Source: a virus. From it: a DNA stretch of 38,130 nt. Below the pieces are notes generated by a model. That model had not been told where the DNA came from. It saw nothing but the letters and a program-made list of their open reading frames with translations, and made no database searches. Each line of letters begins with the position of its first letter. Within the stretch, counting starts at the first letter, position 1. Of this stretch, positions 3,306-30,807 are shown in pieces. The stretch covers positions 1 to 38,130 of the IMG/VR virus record IMGVR_UViG_3300007344_000074. One strand, given 5' to 3'. The translations under genes and the position numbers were made by a program.

Positions 3306-4367
3306 TCAAGCATATATGAAATCGGATAAATCAAGTATTTCCTCCGTAAAGTAGTTATCCAATCTCCTTATTTTTATTCTCTTCGCTCGAAGAAAATTTA
3401 CAAGGTCATTTAAGTCCCATTTCTTATTTATCGGAAGTTCGTGATCCACCAAAAACTTCTTCCAATTGAACACCCTTTTACCTGCAGATAGAAGTTCAGA
3501 ATGTTTTTGTCTTCCTGCATTATCCCAGTCATACCAGTATTGTACATTTTCAACATCAAACGGAAATTTGTTTTCTATAGAACAAAGTGCAACCGAATTT
3601 TTCCAGAGCCATGAATCCATTGGACCCTCGAAGATTGTGATGGTTCGGTCAAAAGAAATCCGCCCCACATTAAAAACAAATGATACTGGATCTATCTTTT
3701 TTGCCTCTTCTATCAAATTTTGATCGTCCGTCTTAAGAAGCTTTTCCCATATTCCACTTAGTTTATATGTGTAATATTTGGAACCATATGTGGAATCCAT
3801 ATTTCTAAATTGCAAACCCAATATCTCATTATCCTTAGATAGATTGAAGAGATATAGTTTACCAGTTTCAGGATCCCAGGCAAACTTGTCATCGGATTGC
3901 TGGTTTCTACGTATCAAATAGTTTTCCATCTTAGAGCCCTTAACCTCCTGGAGTCCCATTTCTTGCATGAATCTTTCCCTTGGAATAACTACGGATTTGA
4001 AATCAGTATCGAAAAACAAAGAAATATCTACGTCGCCATAAGTGGTTTGTCTCTTTTCCTTACCCTTCTTGATCAGGTCAATTATATCCCTTTTTTCATC
4101 TCCATCAAGTTTTGATACAACCTGAAAATCACGAAACATAGAGAAAGCATCCTTGTAAATCCCACAACCACCATTATAGCATTTATAGGTGAGGGTATCA
4201 ACGTAGAAATTTCCCCTCTTCTTTCTTGGATTTGAAGAATCCCCACAATATGGACAAGAAATATTTAATCTATTACCAGCCTCATATATCTTTTGTTTGC
4301 CAGCATTTCCAGCAAACTCTTTTCTTAAAATGTCATCTAAAAGTTCCCTAATTCTACCCAAATCCAT
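3306..4367 (-). CDS. 61: DNA primase, T4 gp61 type
   Basis: The protein has 353 residues, against 342 in T4 gp61. The N-terminal zinc ribbon has CPYC at 38-41 with further cysteines at 63 and 68, followed by the aromatic and basic pattern typical of primase zinc domains. The TOPRIM core shows FEGPMD (246-251), matching gp61 LEGPID, then YDWDNAG (279-285) and DLNDL (318-322), giving the Glu, Asp-x-Asp and final Asp that bind metal. It makes RNA primers for lagging-strand synthesis with a gp41-type helicase, which is not in this window. It is the first gene after the gp32 terminator, so it needs read-through or its own promoter; none is clear. Confidence 0.9.
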   Translation of the reverse strand: MDLGRIRELLDDILRKEFAGNAGKQKIYEAGNRLNISCPYCGDSSNPRKKRGNFYVDTLTYKCYNGGCGIYKDAFSMFRDFQVVSKLDGDEKRDIIDLIKKGKEKRQTTYGDVDISLFFDTDFKSVVIPRERFMQEMGLQEVKGSKMENYLIRRNQQSDDKFAWDPETGKLYLFNLSKDNEILGLQFRNMDSTYGSKYYTYKLSGIWEKLLKTDDQNLIEEAKKIDPVSFVFNVGRISFDRTITIFEGPMDSWLWKNSVALCSIENKFPFDVENVQYWYDWDNAGRQKHSELLSAGKRVFNWKKFLVDHELPINKKWDLNDLVNFLRAKRIKIRRLDNYFTEEILDLSDFIYA

Positions 4368-4387
4368 ATTAATCCTAGTTTACAGTT

Positions 4388-4427
4388 AAAAAAGAAAGGG
4401 GGCAGCAATTCTCATTGCCAAGCCCCC
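4388..4427 (-). terminator. Rho-independent terminator after gene 32
   Basis: On the minus strand a GGGGGC / GCCCCC stem (4422-4427 with 4398-4403), extended inside by GCAA/TTGC pairing, is followed by TTTCTTTTTT. It begins 14 nt past the gp32 stop. The G+C-rich stem in an AT-rich genome and the U-tract make it a strong intrinsic terminator. Confidence 0.88.
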
Positions 4428-4440
4428 ATTCAAGATAGAT

Positions 4441-5394
4441 TTAGAGATCTGCGTATAGGTCGTCTAGGGACGATGAAGTTTCTGGTGCTGAAGGTTGGCT
4501 GATGCCCTTATCCTCTTTTGCAGGTTCGGATCCTACCTTTGTTGAAGAAGCTTCATTATAGAAATCGTTCGTTGAACTAGAAGATGAAGTTGTAGTAGAA
4601 GATTGGTTTACACCTCCTAAAACCTCATTAACTAATCTTCCGTCAGGAACTGAATTCTTAATAACATTCATCACACGGTCGGTAGTATTTTGATCCCAAT
4701 CCTTGTATTCAAATTGTGTGAGGTTATCAGGACCTGTTTTAAGGTATTCCATGATTGCATTCATGTCATCCTGATTCTTAGCCATCTTCTTGCCGTTGAT
4801 CTCGATAGCGGTTCTATCACCAACGAATGAGCAAAGATCGTAGTTGTTCCACTCACCAACTTTTCTTGTATGTACTGAGAAAAGTTTACCTTCAAAAAGA
4901 TCGTAAGGGTTGCAAGAATCTCCATATTCAGGCTTGAGCTGTGCTTCGAGCATATCGTTTAGCTTACGTCCAAATTTGAAGATCATAATTTTTCCCTCAA
5001 GCTCAGGATTGTGTTTATCCTGTACGATTTGAATGAGTGAGTAGTAGTCTTCCTTTCTAGAAAAACTTCTTGATAATTCTTGGTCTGCTGCTGAATGTGA
5101 ATTTTTCAGCTTCCAGAACATGTCCTTAAGTACTGATTTTTTTCCTACCGTTGACGGACAGTCAACTGGAAATCCATCACCTGTTGTTGGATCGTTTAGA
5201 TAAACGTAGTACTTGTGGATTTTTGATTTCGTCGGATCGACGTGGTTAGGAAGAAAACGGATCAGCGATTTGTAAACTCCATCCTTTCCGTTTTCCGGAT
5301 ATGGTTTGTAAAATTCTGTTCCTTCTGAATTCTCCTTTTTTGCTTTCGTTACGAATGCTTCCGCATCCAAATTGAAAATGTCTAAATTACTCAT
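4441..5394 (-). CDS. 32: Single-stranded DNA-binding protein, T4 gp32 type
   Basis: The protein has 317 residues, against 301 in T4 gp32. The layout matches: an N-terminal cooperativity region, a core beginning SLIRFLPN (43-50; T4 AVIRFLPS), EGKIMIFKFGRKL (133-145; T4 EGKVFKYRFGKKI), a Ser-rich linker and an acidic tail SSSLDDLYADL like T4 LDDLLNDL. It coats single-stranded DNA and recruits replication and recombination partners through that tail. The zinc-binding CPVC of T4 is missing; only C79 remains where T4 has C77. The leader is A-rich with AAGAGAAA and no strong Shine-Dalgarno. A strong terminator follows. It ends the operon that carries the RuBisCO-like cassette. Confidence 0.93.
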   Translation of the reverse strand: MSNLDIFNLDAEAFVTKAKKENSEGTEFYKPYPENGKDGVYKSLIRFLPNHVDPTKSKIHKYYVYLNDPTTGDGFPVDCPSTVGKKSVLKDMFWKLKNSHSAADQELSRSFSRKEDYYSLIQIVQDKHNPELEGKIMIFKFGRKLNDMLEAQLKPEYGDSCNPYDLFEGKLFSVHTRKVGEWNNYDLCSFVGDRTAIEINGKKMAKNQDDMNAIMEYLKTGPDNLTQFEYKDWDQNTTDRVMNVIKNSVPDGRLVNEVLGGVNQSSTTTSSSSSTNDFYNEASSTKVGSEPAKEDKGISQPSAPETSSSLDDLYADL

Positions 5395-5435: not shown

Positions 5436-6218
5436 CTAAGTGTCCCAAATGTTTCCCCTAGACATTATATATCCAAAACTTTTTTCATCTATTTCGTTTT
5501 CTGATACTTCGGTCTCCCAAACATTCTTACCTCGGAGTGAAACTTTGACAAACGGCCTAGATAAACCAAATTCAGAACTTTCTATGTGATATCTTAGTAA
5601 AGTTTCAGGGTGGAAGTAAATATCGGATAGAATATACTCCTCCAGATAGTCGAACATTTTGCAGTAATGCTCCATTGCATCTCTACCTCCCCAAGCCAAT
5701 ATATCATTTACCCCACCTTTCCAATCAAACCCAGGAGGAACATTGATCTTATCCAAGTCCTGTCCTAAATTCAATTCATTGTGAATCTTAATATCCATTC
5801 TTCCCTTGATGACGCAATCGTACTTTTGACCTACCTGGATTTCATATTCTTCCATCAAGGAGTAAGCTTGTCTAATTTTATACCACATCAAAAAAACAGA
5901 CACTGGATTGATCTCACCAGTCTGTGGACCAAACCCCTCATAAGACCAAGCCCTGTCAATAAACTTTCTAATCGCATCAGAACCAAAATCGTCGGTCTTC
6001 AAGTGCTTGGGTGAATACATCTTTATAAGATCGTCAATGGTTAAGGAGTCCACTAGATCTTTAGTTTCAGCATGTAGAGATTGGTTGATTTCACCCGAGG
6101 GATTCCAAGTTGATATGAAAACATCAGTATCATACTTATCTAAAATTTCTGACTTGATAAACGGGAAGGAATCCTGAGCTTCCCTTATTTGACCAGGAAG
6201 TAGCAAGGCAACCCTCAT
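5436..6218 (-). CDS. Polysaccharide-type glycosyltransferase-like protein
   Basis: The 260-residue protein begins MRVALLLPGQIREAQDSF and has DVFISTW at 32-38. This opening (a hydrophobic strand, G-Q-x-R, then DVFIxTW) is typical of a family in capsule and exopolysaccharide loci usually annotated as glycosyltransferase-like or of unknown function. The middle has MWYKI (111-115) and YDCVIKGRMDIKI (133-145), whose R-x-D is the likely nucleotide-sugar or metal site, then NDILAWGG (171-178). It overlaps the preceding glycerophosphodiesterase-like gene by ATGA. Its product may transfer the group made by the upstream genes to a glycan or other acceptor; acceptor and donor are unknown. Confidence 0.6.
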   Translation of the reverse strand: MRVALLLPGQIREAQDSFPFIKSEILDKYDTDVFISTWNPSGEINQSLHAETKDLVDSLTIDDLIKMYSPKHLKTDDFGSDAIRKFIDRAWSYEGFGPQTGEINPVSVFLMWYKIRQAYSLMEEYEIQVGQKYDCVIKGRMDIKIHNELNLGQDLDKINVPPGFDWKGGVNDILAWGGRDAMEHYCKMFDYLEEYILSDIYFHPETLLRYHIESSEFGLSRPFVKVSLRGKNVWETEVSENEIDEKSFGYIMSRGNIWDT

Positions 6219-6649
6219 GAATAATTCACAATATAATCAGAACATACACCACAACAACTATCAACTTTCTCCTCGTACATCTCAGGTAAAACCGCAATGC
6301 TTTTGCTAATTGGTTGCATCCCAGGAAAAGCCCAAATGAAAGATTTAGAGGTAAGGGTTACCTTGTCGTTTTCGTGCCAAAAAACATTGAGATCTCCATA
6401 TTCCTTCAGATAAACCATAGCTGATATGTTTTTACAATGTATCCATAACTTATCCCCTCTTTCTAAAAGCCAAGCAAGATGTATTTTGGTTTCTGGAGAA
6501 TCGTGTCCCAAATAGATTGATGCTCCGGAGATCCAAACGTCGATCTCCACATCATACCCCAGATCAAGAGCTTCCTGTATATAGTCAATCGTATTTTCTC
6601 TATCCGGATTTGGACCTTTTAAATTACCTCTATGTGATATTAGCTTCAT
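6215..6649 (-). CDS. Short glycerophosphodiester phosphodiesterase-like protein
   Basis: The 144 residues carry the signature residues of the GDPD / PI-PLC TIM-barrel superfamily: SHRG (5-8), ENT (18-20), EIDVW (35-39) and GHD (48-50), giving the catalytic His pair and the metal-binding Glu and Asp. LWIHCKN (68-74) replaces the usual E-x-K strand, and CSDYIVNY forms the C-terminus. Family members usually have 230-300 residues, so this is a compact form. The family hydrolyses, or in some cases transfers, phosphodiesters of glycerol or similar polyols. It starts 1 nt after the RuBisCO-like gene and overlaps the glycosyltransferase gene by 4 nt. A role in adding or removing a phosphopolyol is likely but unproven. 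Confidence 0.68.
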   Translation of the reverse strand: MKLISHRGNLKGPNPDRENTIDYIQEALDLGYDVEIDVWISGASIYLGHDSPETKIHLAWLLERGDKLWIHCKNISAMVYLKEYGDLNVFWHENDKVTLTSKSFIWAFPGMQPISKSIAVLPEMYEEKVDSCCGVCSDYIVNYS

Positions 6650-6650
6650 A

Positions 6651-7886
6651 TCAGAATATTCGATAGTCTAGATCTTCCGAGAAACATTTATTACCCCACT
6701 TTTCTATTGCTGCTTTATATTCAGGCTCATCATGATCTCCATCGATAGACTGTCTCATTGCCAAGGCACCAGCTCTAGTTCCCTGTGGGTGTCCATGCAT
6801 AGCACCGCCAACGTTTGCCATCCAATCGAAGCTTCCTATTGTTGTATTAATATACTCAACAAGCCCTGGATGCATACCACAGCTTAAAGCAGGAACAATG
6901 TTATAATTCCAAAGGGTTTGTAAGGTATCTTTTATTTCCTGCTCATCTTGGCTCATATAACCGCCGATCATTCCTGCATGGATCGAATCGACTCCAGACC
7001 ACCCAGCGATCTTGCACAAAACCGGCCAGTAAATGTGGTTTGGCGCCCTACGGTCAGTAAAGAATTTATCTCCGCTCTTTTGGAAATGTATCCAGAGATT
7101 TGGATTTTGCTTTCTAATAGCACGATAAATTCCCAGGCCGCTCCACACGTTTATGTGTATTCCGTTCCCACCGTTATCTGCTACAAATTTTGCCCTTTCT
7201 AAGGCATATGGACTATCACCATTTATGCAAAAGCAATAAATTACGTCGGGCGCATTCTCTTTTAACCAAGATGAAATCAAAGGTACTCTTTCTTCAAGAG
7301 GGCAGTGGGAAGGGTTAGCAAGTAATTCATCCTCTTTGATGAAATTCACACCACCATAAACCATTTCCTTCACAGCTTCGAGAAGAACAGAGGGAGACAT
7401 ACCAACCTTAGGTTTAACTATTCCACCTAAGAAAGGTCTTTGTTTTATACCATTAAATTTCCTCCATCCATCAATACCATAGGCCGGATTTAAAGAAAAT
7501 GATCTCTCAGCATCCTCAGGCAAAGAAATGTCCAAGACATGACATTGTCTTACTTCCTCTATGTCAACCTGACCACCAGCTATATGACAAAGTATTTGAG
7601 AGATCCCATCTTCTTCCAAATTAAGATTTGCTAGAGGAAAAGCTATCTCGATCTCGCCCTCTTTTAGCTGGGTAAGATCTTCTTCGTTTGCAAGAATAAA
7701 GCAACTGTGATTTTCAAACATCTCATCGGTTTCCCACTCGCTCCTATTATTCGGGTTACCTATACTTTGACCTATAGCCAAATTCCAGGAAGCTTCCCTC
7801 AAAGAAGTTTTAGCTTCCAAAAAGTATTTGACTATAAAATACTGGGATGTATCAAAATCCGCCTTATTTTTAAAAATGCTTATCAT
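6651..7886 (-). CDS. RuBisCO-like protein (large-subunit fold, probably form IV)
   Basis: The 411-residue protein has the N-terminal alpha/beta domain and TIM barrel of the RuBisCO large subunit. Recognisable landmarks, with spinach numbering in brackets, are GGIVKPKVG (154-162; K158 is K175 and K160 is K177), FIKEDE (182-187; K184 is K201, the lysine carbamylated to bind Mg, with D186 and E187 as metal ligands), WIHFQ (265-269; H267 is H294), SIHAG (301-305; H303 is H327), LSCGM (334-338; S335 is S379) and VGGAMHGHPQG (359-369; phosphate-binding glycines). The loop-6 lysine (K334) is replaced by Tyr or Gly, R295 by Phe, and the N-terminal E60/N123 pattern is not evident. This points to an enolase, isomerase or retro-aldol reaction on a phosphorylated sugar rather than CO2 fixation. 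The start overlaps the cupin stop (ATGA). Confidence 0.92.
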   Translation of the reverse strand: MISIFKNKADFDTSQYFIVKYFLEAKTSLREASWNLAIGQSIGNPNNRSEWETDEMFENHSCFILANEEDLTQLKEGEIEIAFPLANLNLEEDGISQILCHIAGGQVDIEEVRQCHVLDISLPEDAERSFSLNPAYGIDGWRKFNGIKQRPFLGGIVKPKVGMSPSVLLEAVKEMVYGGVNFIKEDELLANPSHCPLEERVPLISSWLKENAPDVIYCFCINGDSPYALERAKFVADNGGNGIHINVWSGLGIYRAIRKQNPNLWIHFQKSGDKFFTDRRAPNHIYWPVLCKIAGWSGVDSIHAGMIGGYMSQDEQEIKDTLQTLWNYNIVPALSCGMHPGLVEYINTTIGSFDWMANVGGAMHGHPQGTRAGALAMRQSIDGDHDEPEYKAAIEKWGNKCFSEDLDYRIF

Positions 7887-8206
7887 TCAATTACAAATTT
7901 ATCACCAGGAACCGAGGGGGTCTTAACTATAAAAACTTCACAGTCTTCCAAAAATACGGGGTCAGCAATTTCATCTTTCCTTAGAATAAACACATCCCCC
8001 GAATTTAATTCCCGTCCTTGTATAATCATTTTACCCGATCTGAGGAAGTTTATTTCATCCGCTTCCTTATGGTAATGTTTTGGCCACTCTTCGCCCTTGA
8101 AGTGCTTTTTATAACAAATCTCAAAATCACTAGTTTGGTAAGCTACTGGGGAGAAATCTCCAGCATACCAACCTCCCTTCATATCTTCAATTCTATAAAC
8201 TTCCAT
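7883..8206 (-). CDS. Small single-domain cupin
   Basis: The 107 residues form one beta-barrel cupin. Motif 1 is clear: KHYHKEADEINFLRSGKM, with metal ligands H44, H46 and E51. Motif 2 (SGDVFILRKDEIADPVF, 69-85) lacks the usual His, so the metal site is incomplete or uses an acidic ligand. Cupins of this size act on sugars as epimerases or isomerases, or only bind them. The gene begins 3 nt after the nucleotidyltransferase and its stop overlaps the RuBisCO-like start, so it is surely co-expressed with both. A role in shaping or binding the same sugar phosphate is inferred from position. Confidence 0.78.
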   Translation of the reverse strand: MEVYRIEDMKGGWYAGDFSPVAYQTSDFEICYKKHFKGEEWPKHYHKEADEINFLRSGKMIIQGRELNSGDVFILRKDEIADPVFLEDCEVFIVKTPSVPGDKFVIE

Positions 8207-8209
8207 AAA

Positions 8210-8941
8210 CTAAACCAACTTTAAAAATTTATCCAGGTCCTCTGGGGTACCTATCGGAAAGTGAAGGTTATAGAAGAAGGGCAATATTTTCTTTCCACTT
8301 TTTATCATGTAATTGTAGGTAGGTGCAACATAGAACTCATTATTGTACCGATCGTTTGCTGCTATCATTTGTTCCGCACTTTCCACAAAGTATTTACCAT
8401 GCTTCCAAAAATGTAACCCGTTAGTAGCAATGTTGGAAATCACAATTTTTTCCTTCACATCACAGACCTCTCCGTTTGGATCTAACTTAACATAGCTGTT
8501 CTTTTTAGAAGAGGAAAGAAAACATCCCAACAATCCATCACACCCCGTAGTTCTTGCAAAATCTAAAATGAAGTCCAGATTGAAATCCAGAATAATCTGA
8601 TCACAGTTAACAACAATGAGAGGCAGATCGTTATTGATCGACTGACTTGCAAAGAGAACCGTTGAAGCTGGTCCTTGTGTTAATGTTGGGGTTGAGAAAA
8701 TCTCATACGATATTCCCATGTCTGATATATGGGAGTCAAATTCTGTAGGAGAAATATATTCCTCGTTTATCACAAATACAAAGTGTGCATCTTGATGATT
8801 TAGGTTTTTAATCACTGACCTAATCATCGTTTCTCCGCTGACGTCTATAAATGGTTTTATCTGTAGGTATCCAGCGTCGCTGAATCTCCTTCCAGCACCT
8901 CCGAGAGGAATAAGAATGTTAACCTTCTTTGATTGAGTCAT
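8210..8941 (-). CDS. NDP-sugar-type nucleotidyltransferase
   Basis: The 243-residue GT-A-like nucleotidyltransferase opens with ILIPLGGAGRRF (9-20), the G-G-x-G-x-R nucleotide loop, followed by K29-P30. TLTQGPAST (86-94) binds the base or sugar, VNCDQ (111-115) supplies the metal-binding Asp, and NEFYVAPTYN and FPIGTPEDL are typical of sugar-phosphate or alditol-phosphate nucleotidyltransferases. The reaction should be sugar- or polyol-phosphate + NTP giving NDP-sugar + PPi. Which base and sugar cannot be read from sequence. The start lies 23 nt inside the end of the RuvC-like gene. It is the first enzyme of the cassette in transcription order, and would activate the product of the RuBisCO-like and cupin steps. 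Confidence 0.85.
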   Translation of the reverse strand: MTQSKKVNILIPLGGAGRRFSDAGYLQIKPFIDVSGETMIRSVIKNLNHQDAHFVFVINEEYISPTEFDSHISDMGISYEIFSTPTLTQGPASTVLFASQSINNDLPLIVVNCDQIILDFNLDFILDFARTTGCDGLLGCFLSSSKKNSYVKLDPNGEVCDVKEKIVISNIATNGLHFWKHGKYFVESAEQMIAANDRYNNEFYVAPTYNYMIKSGKKILPFFYNLHFPIGTPEDLDKFLKLV

Positions 8942-9590
8942 ATAAAAATAAACATATCCAGGTCGAATCTATAATATCATCCAATGGCTTGTTTACATTA
9001 CCGGAGGGAGTTATCCATTCGTCCTTATTTTCTTCTAAAATACTAGTGAAAGACCCTAAATTAGTTTCTGGAAATTTGTGATCAATAAGAGAATTATAAA
9101 GTTCGTGTTTTTTTGCATTTCCCTTAAAAGCGAACTTCTTGATAGAGGTGGGTGAATAAACATAGAAATTATCGCTACCTGTATGATCAACTATTTTCTT
9201 ACGGAGTAGAGCTGTGGCCATAGAGATATCAATCAAAGCATTACCATTAGAGGCAAAACTTAGTCCTTCCATAGCTACAACAATATCATCACCTGCACAG
9301 ATATTTTCTACTTCAGACCAAAATTCATCAACGAGCTCCTGAAAATAATCTATCTTTATCCTTTCCCTTTCCGAGTAGTCTTCTGGCATTTTATCCTTTG
9401 ACATAAACATAAGAACATAGTCTTCCGTTTTGTCTTCAGATAAAACATAGTAAGGTTTTTTAGCATTTTTCTTAAGTGATTCTGCAGTCCGGTCACTTCT
9501 TGTTAAAGACCCCCAAGTGAATTGATTATCCCTTAGAATACAGAATGCGGGTGAATTAAGGGAAAAGTCTATCCCAACTAATGTTTTCAA
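8919..9590 (-). CDS. RuvC-like Holliday junction nuclease (RNase H fold)
   Basis: The 223-residue protein starts LVGIDFSLNSPAF, where D8 in GIDxS is the first RuvC catalytic Asp. It continues with VVAMEGLSF (104-112; E108), PTSIKKFAFKGNAKKHEL (147-164; the basic region of RuvC) and PLDDIIDST (202-210; the D-D-x-x-D end motif). It would resolve branched DNA before packaging. The start must be TTG at 9590, or ATT one codon earlier: the frame closes with TAA at 9603-9605, and the next Met, at residue 61, would lose D8. A terminator and a GATATATA box stand just upstream, so this gene opens the transcription unit that carries the sugar cassette and gene 32. Confidence 0.82.
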   Translation of the reverse strand: MKTLVGIDFSLNSPAFCILRDNQFTWGSLTRSDRTAESLKKNAKKPYYVLSEDKTEDYVLMFMSKDKMPEDYSERERIKIDYFQELVDEFWSEVENICAGDDIVVAMEGLSFASNGNALIDISMATALLRKKIVDHTGSDNFYVYSPTSIKKFAFKGNAKKHELYNSLIDHKFPETNLGSFTSILEENKDEWITPSGNVNKPLDDIIDSTWICLFLYDSIKEG

Positions 9591-30150: not shown

Positions 30151-30807
30151 ATGCCAGACTCATCGAAACGTAACCCCAAGGGAGATACGAAGTTTAACAT
30201 TACTCTTTCAGAAGAACAAAAATCGGCAAAATCTGAAATCAGGAAACACCCATTCAATTTTATTACTGGAAAAGCAGGAAGTGGTAAGACACTTTTAGCA
30301 GTCCAAATAGCACTAGATTGCTATTTCAAAAGAGAATGTGAAAAAATAGTAATCACTAGACCAACGGTTTCTAACGAGGATAACGGATTTTTACCAGGAT
30401 CTCTAGAGGAAAAAATGGAACCTTGGCTTGTTCCAATTAGATCGAACATGAGAAAGGTTTACAACAAAGCAGACCATTTGGAAAGAATGGAAAAAGATGA
30501 GATTATCGAATTGGTTTCTCTTAGTCATTTCAGAGGGAGAACGTTTGATAGATCTGTTGTTATTGTAGATGAATTTCAAAATTTAACCAAGCAACAACTA
30601 GGTATGGTACTAGGTAGACTTGGCAAGCATTCAAGAATGATTCTTTGTGGTGATGGACAGCAGATAGATTTGAAATTTGCTAATGATTCGGCTATCCATG
30701 AAGTACCAAAACTCAAGGATTCAAAATTTGTCTATTCAATAGCTTTGAAAGATAACCACAGACACGAGTCTATAGATGAAGTTCTAAGGCTACTTTATAC
30801 ATTCTAA
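30151..30807 (+). CDS. phoH: PhoH-like ATPase
   Basis: The 218-residue P-loop ATPase shows Walker A GKAGSGKT (40-47), ITRPTVSNEDNGFLPG (68-83, the family's R-P ... G-x-L-P-G signature), Walker B VVIVDEFQN (136-144), GDGQQID (167-173) and KDNHRHESI toward the C-terminus. It corresponds to the PhoH core without extra domains. PhoH-like proteins are common in phages and related to SF1 helicases; a role in RNA metabolism is suspected but not settled. It is the only plus-strand gene, divergent from the fibre gene and convergent with the propeller gene, whose stop codon directly abuts its own. No terminator was seen at that junction. Confidence 0.92.
   Translation: MPDSSKRNPKGDTKFNITLSEEQKSAKSEIRKHPFNFITGKAGSGKTLLAVQIALDCYFKRECEKIVITRPTVSNEDNGFLPGSLEEKMEPWLVPIRSNMRKVYNKADHLERMEKDEIIELVSLSHFRGRTFDRSVVIVDEFQNLTKQQLGMVLGRLGKHSRMILCGDGQQIDLKFANDSAIHEVPKLKDSKFVYSIALKDNHRHESIDEVLRLLYTF

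Follow-up and report, generated by a model that had tools for sequence, protein, structure and literature searches.

Results

A five-gene cassette around a RuBisCO-like protein

The virus record IMGVR_UViG_3300007344_000074 was analyzed over its 38,130 nt (the window; positions given without a locus number are window positions). Between a RuvC-like gene and a gp32-like gene it carries five consecutive genes, encoding a nucleotidyltransferase (NT), a cupin-like protein (CUP), a RuBisCO-like protein (RLP), a glycerophosphodiester phosphodiesterase (GDPD)-like protein and a predicted glycosyltransferase-like protein (GTL) (Table 1). A preliminary description, made from the sequence alone, had presented them as one sugar-modification cassette. 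The coordinates, minus-strand orientation and junctions that it gave for the five open reading frames (ORFs) were all confirmed: NT and CUP are separated by 3 nt and RLP and GDPD by 1 nt, CUP–RLP and GDPD–GTL overlap by 4 nt each, and the NT and RuvC-like ORFs share 23 nt. Base composition gives no mark of insertion (G+C content 39.0% for the cassette versus 38.1% for the window).

Table 1 Features of the cassette and its flanks in the window
Feature	Position	Strand	Evidence
NT, sugar-phosphate nucleotidyltransferase-like, 243 aa	8210-8941	minus	PF00483, PDB matches, conserved residues
CUP, single-domain cupin-like, 107 aa	7883-8206	minus	PHROG 24762, weak profile matches, H44/H46/E51 motif
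RLP, RuBisCO-like, 411 aa	6651-7886	minus	PF00016, tree, active-site table; signatures QKSGD, GMxGGY, SCG
GDPD, compact GDPD-like barrel (predicted), 144 aa	6215-6649	minus	profile match, predicted fold, conserved residues
GTL, GT-A-fold glycosyltransferase-like (predicted), 260 aa	5436-6218	minus	predicted fold alone
RuvC-like resolvase gene, upstream flank of insertion site	8919-9590	minus	PHROG 159 (3.9e-14)
gp32-like single-strand DNA-binding protein, downstream flank	4441-5394	minus	PF08804 (1.8e-12), PHROG 224 (2.2e-33)
Primase, after gp32	3306-4367		PHROGs match (2.2e-23)

The window RLP contains the RuBisCO superfamily domain (PF00016, 4e-33, 115 bits, cut-off 30.1) and falls under every NCBIfam cut-off listed, scoring 167.8 bits with the form III model (cut-off 497.45), 119.4 and 89 bits with the MtnW models NF007095 and TIGR03332 (cut-offs 409 and 513.6) and 124.6 bits with the OiaX model NF042437 (cut-off 700). 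A midpoint-rooted tree of 71 rows, 69 of them different, was built from 30 reference RuBisCOs and RLPs, 24 cellular and 17 viral sequences. Form III proteins gathered with TIGR03326 and alphaproteobacterial RuBisCO-domain proteins gathered with the OiaX model served as references, along with five proteins from plasmids, of which one carries an OiaX annotation; named MtnW or Deep-Ykr sequences were not among the rows. Cassette RLPs split from all 30 sampled references at 100/100 support, and among the sampled branches an OiaX-type group lies nearest, at a fork supported by just 93/56. A profile of the cassette RLPs gives its members 302-722 bits and the references 53-191 bits. When the PDB was searched with this profile (A1) at 1e-15, the best solved structure was a form III protein at 168 bits, and the solved RLP 2qyg, which we take to be the Deep-Ykr protein RLP2, reached 101 bits.

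Active-site positions were tabulated for 72 cassette RLPs (48 viral and 24 cellular, a set with near-copies and one identical pair), with RuBisCO numbering and with the roles that we assume for H294 and loop-6 K334 in the alignment. K175, K201, D203 and E204 are retained in all 72, and Gln stands at H294 and Tyr at K334 in all 72; in the references, position 294 is His in 30/30 and position 334 is Lys in 28/30 and Arg in 2/30. On sequence grounds, having the superfamily domain and lacking residues for CO2 fixation, the cassette RLPs are Form IV RuBisCO-like proteins. Because the metal and base residues are kept while H294 and K334 are replaced, carboxylation is implausible, CO2 fixation being very unlikely, and enolization is plausible.

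The calls for NT, RLP, gp32, the RuvC-like protein and primase are borne out by Pfam or PHROGs matches. NT matches PF00483 (2.6e-10, 40.8 bits, cut-off 21.2) and PDB 4evw (1.5e-13 by phmmer, 2.4e-34 by profile), and G15, G17, R19, D114, E164 and K165 are invariant, with K29 nearly so, in 50 aligned NT sequences. CUP matches the unnamed PHROG 24762 at 8.9e-30, solved cupins by profile at 5e-5 to 6e-2 (best 5.4e-5, covering part of the domain) and Pfam Cupin_7 at 15.6 bits against a cut-off of 27. The GDPD-like protein has no Pfam match by single sequence, and matches 7e0v by profile at 4.1e-5. Its predicted model (pLDDT 97.2) was aligned by VIA to 1o1z over 137 residues (Z 10.4, root-mean-square deviation (rmsd) 3.3); Foldseek gave no match below 1e-3 (best 5.8e-3). 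H6, R7, E35, D37 and H49 are invariant in 36 aligned sequences, and the HR, ExD and H motifs seen in this protein are presumably the GDPD signature. Profile search and predicted fold thus agree with the short GDPD-like call, and the protein is predicted to be a compact GDPD-like barrel. GTL has no Pfam family over cut-off (one domain of unknown function lies below it) and no PDB sequence match by profile. Structure prediction, proposed earlier as a check, agrees with a GT-A-fold glycosyltransferase-like protein: the model (pLDDT 85.9) has a best Foldseek match of 1.9e-6 (TM about 0.44) and aligns by VIA to COLGALT1 over 181 residues (Z 11.9, rmsd 3.3), and the 50 VIA matches listed are glycosyltransferases or synthases of GT-A fold (Z 10.9-11.9).

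Cassette partners recur in viruses, bacteria and archaea

A scan of IMG/VR with the window RLP returned 91 relatives, the best 80 of which were taken as viral RLP loci, many being close relatives of one another; a scan with an RLP alignment gave 347 matching stretches. To count partners, all ORFs lying no more than 4 kb from RLP and on its strand were searched by profile, the NT and GTL profiles being broad; some stretches end at contig ends, affecting the absence counts for cupin and GDPD. NT was near RLP in 77/80 loci, cupin in 74/80, GDPD in 62/80 and GTL in 47/80, the last count being method-dependent (39/80 by blastp, 47/80 by the broad profile). NT and cupin together accompanied RLP in 74/80 loci, and NT, cupin and GDPD in 57/80. 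In a separate, similar count, RLP, NT, cupin and GDPD occurred together in 57 loci (44 after dereplication), and in this set the protein distances of the four correlate (Mantel r 0.37-0.65, each p 0.0005). Sugar and glycan genes lie around RLP in other viral loci. Locus L026 holds, near its RLP cassette, a DHBP synthase and a transaldolase match below cut-off (1287-1922, 4056-4937), an apparent second sugar cassette like that of cyanophage S-SKS1. No match to the window RLP was found by tblastn at 1e-5 in 50,697 INPHARED records, and exact peptide patterns of one presumed form I RuBisCO (L189) occurred in no viral contig.

One scan of genome contigs yielded 23 cellular loci, from Pelagibacteraceae, another alphaproteobacterium, Patescibacteria, three archaea, Verrucomicrobia, Elusimicrobia, Bacteroidota, Azospirillum and Legionella. 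In 19 of these, NT shares the RLP strand and is no more than 4 kb away; the four exceptions have NT on the other strand (L087) or are located near contig ends (L096, L101 and L105). GDPD is near RLP in 14/23 and cupin in 7/23, with the gene order GDPD-RLP-CUP-NT in Azospirillum and Elusimicrobia. The co-occurrence of homologs elsewhere, set as a test of the single-cassette proposal, was thus found on both sides, and partners of RLP recur across viral, bacterial and archaeal loci. From these gene contents, the core is RLP with NT, usually joined by cupin and GDPD, and is present in bacteria and archaea as well.

Cellular carriage is rare: RLP was found in 1/197 Pelagibacterales genomes sampled, the query genome itself, and in 4/22 genomes of the genus of the Legionella genome. 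In 10/10 cell genomes, no more than about 2 kb separates RLP from the best NT match (each genome has 1-6 such matches at 1e-5). The NTs of five of these genomes (G006, G008, G010, G011 and G012) were in the NT profile and that of G003 has a near copy there, leaving G002, G004, G007 and G009 as less dependent tests; the G004 NT still has Pelagibacter relatives in the profile, and G002 has one NT match in all.

A divergent LicD-family gene adjoins RLP-NT in 3/3 Legionella loci examined, and GT61, epimerase and WavE genes lie near other cellular RLPs. For viral loci, a narrow phmmer search with one Legionella LicD matched only three Legionella genes. In the Azospirillum locus (L103, 3891-9568), GDPD-RLP-CUP-NT is followed by genes with PAPS-reductase and APS-kinase domains, making a link to sulfation possible. 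Two different NT genes flank RLP in six Pelagibacteraceae loci (L091, L093-L095, L097 and L098). A Sphingobacteriales bin carries RLP-CUP-NT on a contig (L104) whose remaining genes look phage-like by eye and which may be a phage contig in the bin.

NT fusions in cupin loci with and without RLP

A cupin scan returned 540 relatives, and the 80 most similar to the window cupin were used; RLP is present in 60 of them. An NT with a C-terminal fusion was present in 18/20 cupin loci without RLP versus 1/60 with RLP, and after dereplication to 54 loci in 10/12 versus 1/42 (Fisher p 3e-8). Seven of these ten C-terminal fusions match HAD phosphatases by Pfam, six over cut-off, one (L134) matches a ribose-5-phosphate isomerase B (RpiB) profile, and the other two were not scanned. 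The same NT family is fused to HAD phosphatases elsewhere, and in cyanophages to RpiB (Bellamy, L082, 4835-5992) or to DHBP synthase (S-SKS1, L085, 6001-7428), fusion genes annotated as phosphatase and DHBP synthase, respectively. RpiB was considered as a general substitute for RLP and rejected, as it was found in just two loci (L082 and L134) and the usual scanned C-terminal domain is HAD. To us the pattern suggests that RLP occupies a position otherwise taken by a phosphosugar enzyme, with a reservation over coexisting HAD-NT fusions.

The cassette is movable cargo in a phage backbone

The RuvC and gp32 surroundings of the window are found in just 16/80 viral RLP loci. A gp32 scan gave 156 relatives, 80 of which were used to survey the RuvC-gp32 junction (near-copies included; stretches extend no farther than 7 kb from gp32 in either direction, and not all reach that length). 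The junction holds all five cassette genes in 17 loci, one of them with two extra ORFs; fewer than 300 nt separate the two genes in 31/80, other small ORFs lie there in 31/80, and one stretch has no RuvC. Within this one backbone, NT occurs in 17/17 loci with RLP versus 0/63 without; in those 63, cupin and GTL are likewise found in none and GDPD in four. The gene grouping is far beyond chance. Because the junction is empty or differently filled in most relatives examined, the cassette is movable cargo at a variable site and no part of replication. The preliminary description had built it into a replication operon; with the junction empty or otherwise occupied in 62/80, that part has to be given up, and the setting is incidental.

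Backbone contigs reach 434,509 bases (L300), and among the matches listed for a 507-aa protein (1105-2628) the 15 most similar are from phages of 462-642 kb (32-44% identity). Judging by these sizes, the window probably comes from a large phage. A PhoH-like gene (PF02562, 8.7e-51) lies on the plus strand at 30151-30807, inside a minus-strand block.

Discussion

Proposed pathway

On balance, we lean towards a pathway in which the product of the cassette is a sugar or polyol phosphate, probably an unusual one, activated by a nucleotide. RLP would enolize a phosphorylated ketose, shifting or inverting a carbonyl or hydroxyl by isomerase or epimerase chemistry. The likeliest substrate would be a common pentulose or hexulose monophosphate, and pentulose 5-phosphate in particular is a tentative, by itself rather unlikely, choice. 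In Legionella, provided that no distant gene takes part, RLP would be expected to act on a common metabolite. The cupin may finish or alter the RLP product, NT would, as its family suggests, couple the sugar phosphate to a nucleotide, and the GT-A protein, or LicD in Legionella, may move the activated group onto a surface or virion glycan; the GDPD-like protein could make, trim or recycle a phosphodiester. The LicD family catalyzes phospho-group transfer from a nucleotide carrier, and its presence beside Legionella RLP-NT suggests such a transfer. The earlier proposal, that a sugar or polyol phosphate is activated and then transferred to a glycan, thus stands in part: the NT, GDPD and GT-A partners point to it, and the substrate, the nucleotide and the target are suggestions, as is the short chain length put forward in the preliminary description.

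Several observations weigh against this proposal. GTL is the least constant member of the cassette, with none found within 4 kb in 33/80 viral loci, so the transfer step is not fixed; cupin is undetected in 6/80 and GDPD in 18/80. The 107-aa protein owes its cupin-like call to the H44/H46/E51 motif and to weak profile matches. NT belongs to a broad family, and neither nucleotide nor sugar can be read from its sequence. RLP-NT distances correlate moderately (Mantel r 0.37) in a comparison of cassette genes only, with no outside control gene. The GDPD-like gene stands alone at the RuvC-gp32 junction in four loci (L269-L271 and L278). Most cellular loci come from metagenome-assembled genomes or single cells and might include stray phage contigs; those of Azospirillum and Legionella are from named isolates. 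The exchange pattern is confined to C-terminal NT fusions: N-terminal HAD-NT fusions coexist with RLP and adjoin cupin in L009, L010 and L061, C-terminally extended NTs occur in RLP loci L051, L073 and L080, and the cupin sample, being the 80 most window-like of 540, is biased toward RLP loci. The HAD-NT fusions that coexist with RLP slightly reduced our confidence in the pathway class. In L054 and L068 (RLP at about 5989-7182), which have the window backbone and cassette, NT and cupin are 69-71% and gp32 78-80% identical to those of the window, and RLP 53 and 51%; RLP looks to have been replaced alone by a distant version.

Alternative explanations

Viral rbcL genes have been classed as carbon-fixation genes in the parts of PMC8506154, PMC12607003 and PMC12615777 available to us, and the window RLP does have the RuBisCO domain. 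That the cassette encodes a phage RuBisCO boosting CO2 fixation by the host is nevertheless most improbable, given the Gln and Tyr substitutions in every cassette RLP, a form III score of 168 bits against a cut-off of 497 and the absence of any phosphoribulokinase or small-subunit family match in the other four proteins. Methionine salvage or the MTA-isoprenoid shunt, in which RLP would act on a methylthio-pentulose phosphate and the cupin would remove methanethiol, has in its favor the pairing of RLP and cupin in Rhodospirillum rubrum (as described in the part of PMC4958253 seen). It is highly unlikely here: the MtnW scores of 89 and 119 bits fall short of the cut-offs (514 and 409), 2qyg scores with the cassette profile below form III (101 versus 168 bits), the route has no place for NT or GDPD, and no salvage gene was found among the Pfam-scanned neighbors, which are a part of all neighbors. 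The preliminary description had named a methionine-salvage role as one example of what would overturn it; RLP appears to lie outside that pathway. Sugar-acid or apionate-type catabolism with an OiaX-like decarboxylase, suggested by the weakly supported nearest branch, is also very doubtful, since the OiaX model gives 125 bits against a cut-off of 700, the cassette RLPs split from all references at 100/100, and the four-carbon acid sugar kinase that lies beside all five plasmid RLPs (L249-L253) is absent from the cassette. On these curated scores and the active-site residues, all three of these readings were set aside.

The replacement of several canonical RLP residues would suit a noncatalytic RLP serving as a scaffold or regulator of NT, a reading that we consider unlikely, if less so than the preceding ones: the metal and base residues are invariant in 72/72, and the nonsynonymous distance (dN) is low in four RLP pairs (0.08-0.16; the synonymous distance was not computable, hence no dN/dS). 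The activated group might instead be placed on phage DNA, as the DNA-metabolism genes around the cassette in the window backbone could suggest. That target is improbable, as the RuvC-gp32 position is an insertion site, sugar and glycan genes surround RLP in other viral loci, and the same genes occur in cells.

Relation to known systems

Synthesis of an activated sugar or polyol phosphate can be compared with several described systems. In R. rubrum, an RLP isomerizes methylthio-pentulose phosphate and a cupin sulfurylase takes the product, according to the part of PMC4958253 seen. Compared by description only, this MTRu-1P isomerase shares with the cassette a RuBisCO fold, a phosphoketose substrate and a cupin acting next; the cassette differs in pairing RLP with NT and GDPD, in its Gln and Tyr at H294 and K334 and in having no salvage gene among the scanned neighbors. 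OiaX-type RLPs (NF042437; the plasmid proteins) are the nearest sampled branch and keep K175, K201 and D203, but have the acid sugar kinase alongside, and the window RLP scores far under their cut-off. Cyanophage glycan islands (Bellamy, S-SM2, S-SKS1 and DSL-LC03) set the same families among glycosyltransferase and phosphosugar genes, with NT in four, GDPD in three and cupin in Bellamy; unlike the cassette, they lack an RLP at 1e-5 in INPHARED, and NT is fused to RpiB in Bellamy and to DHBP synthase in S-SKS1. CDP-choline or CDP-polyol systems with LicD resemble the Legionella loci, in which RLP-NT adjoins a LicD-family gene; the cassette differs in having RLP added, and viral LicD was not found by the one-sequence search.

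The Global Ocean Sampling (GOS) data contained 65 RuBisCO homologs clustering with no known RuBisCO (PMC1821046, seen in part). The parts seen of other papers report viral RuBisCO as carbon fixation (PMC8506154), likewise with the protein placed in an 'RbcL-like' cluster (PMC12607003), one viral rbcL active when co-expressed with rbcS (PMC12615777) and a viral Rubisco-domain gene of unspecified role (PMC10159854); the portions of PMC9875498, PMC13269706 and PMC12168267 available to us contain nothing on viral RLPs. No description of a cassette of RLP, NT, cupin and GDPD was found in the literature searched (openly licensed PMC papers), in line with the earlier remark that no described phage pathway was known to have this combination.

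Taken as a whole, we regard it as an evenly balanced proposition that the cassette RLPs are an unrecognized RuBisCO-superfamily branch that helps to make nucleotide sugars or polyol phosphates for surface glycans, is found in large phages, several bacterial phyla and archaea, moves as a cassette and maybe makes up part of the viral 'rbcL' genes at present classed as carbon fixation. The insertion within one phage lineage provides natural pairs with and without the cassette for asking how it benefits the phage, and NT is a testable partner enzyme that limits the possible RLP products. Viral genes named rbcL should be checked at residues 294 and 334 before being counted as carbon fixation. If the proposal is true, building surface sugars would be a new biological role for the RuBisCO fold.

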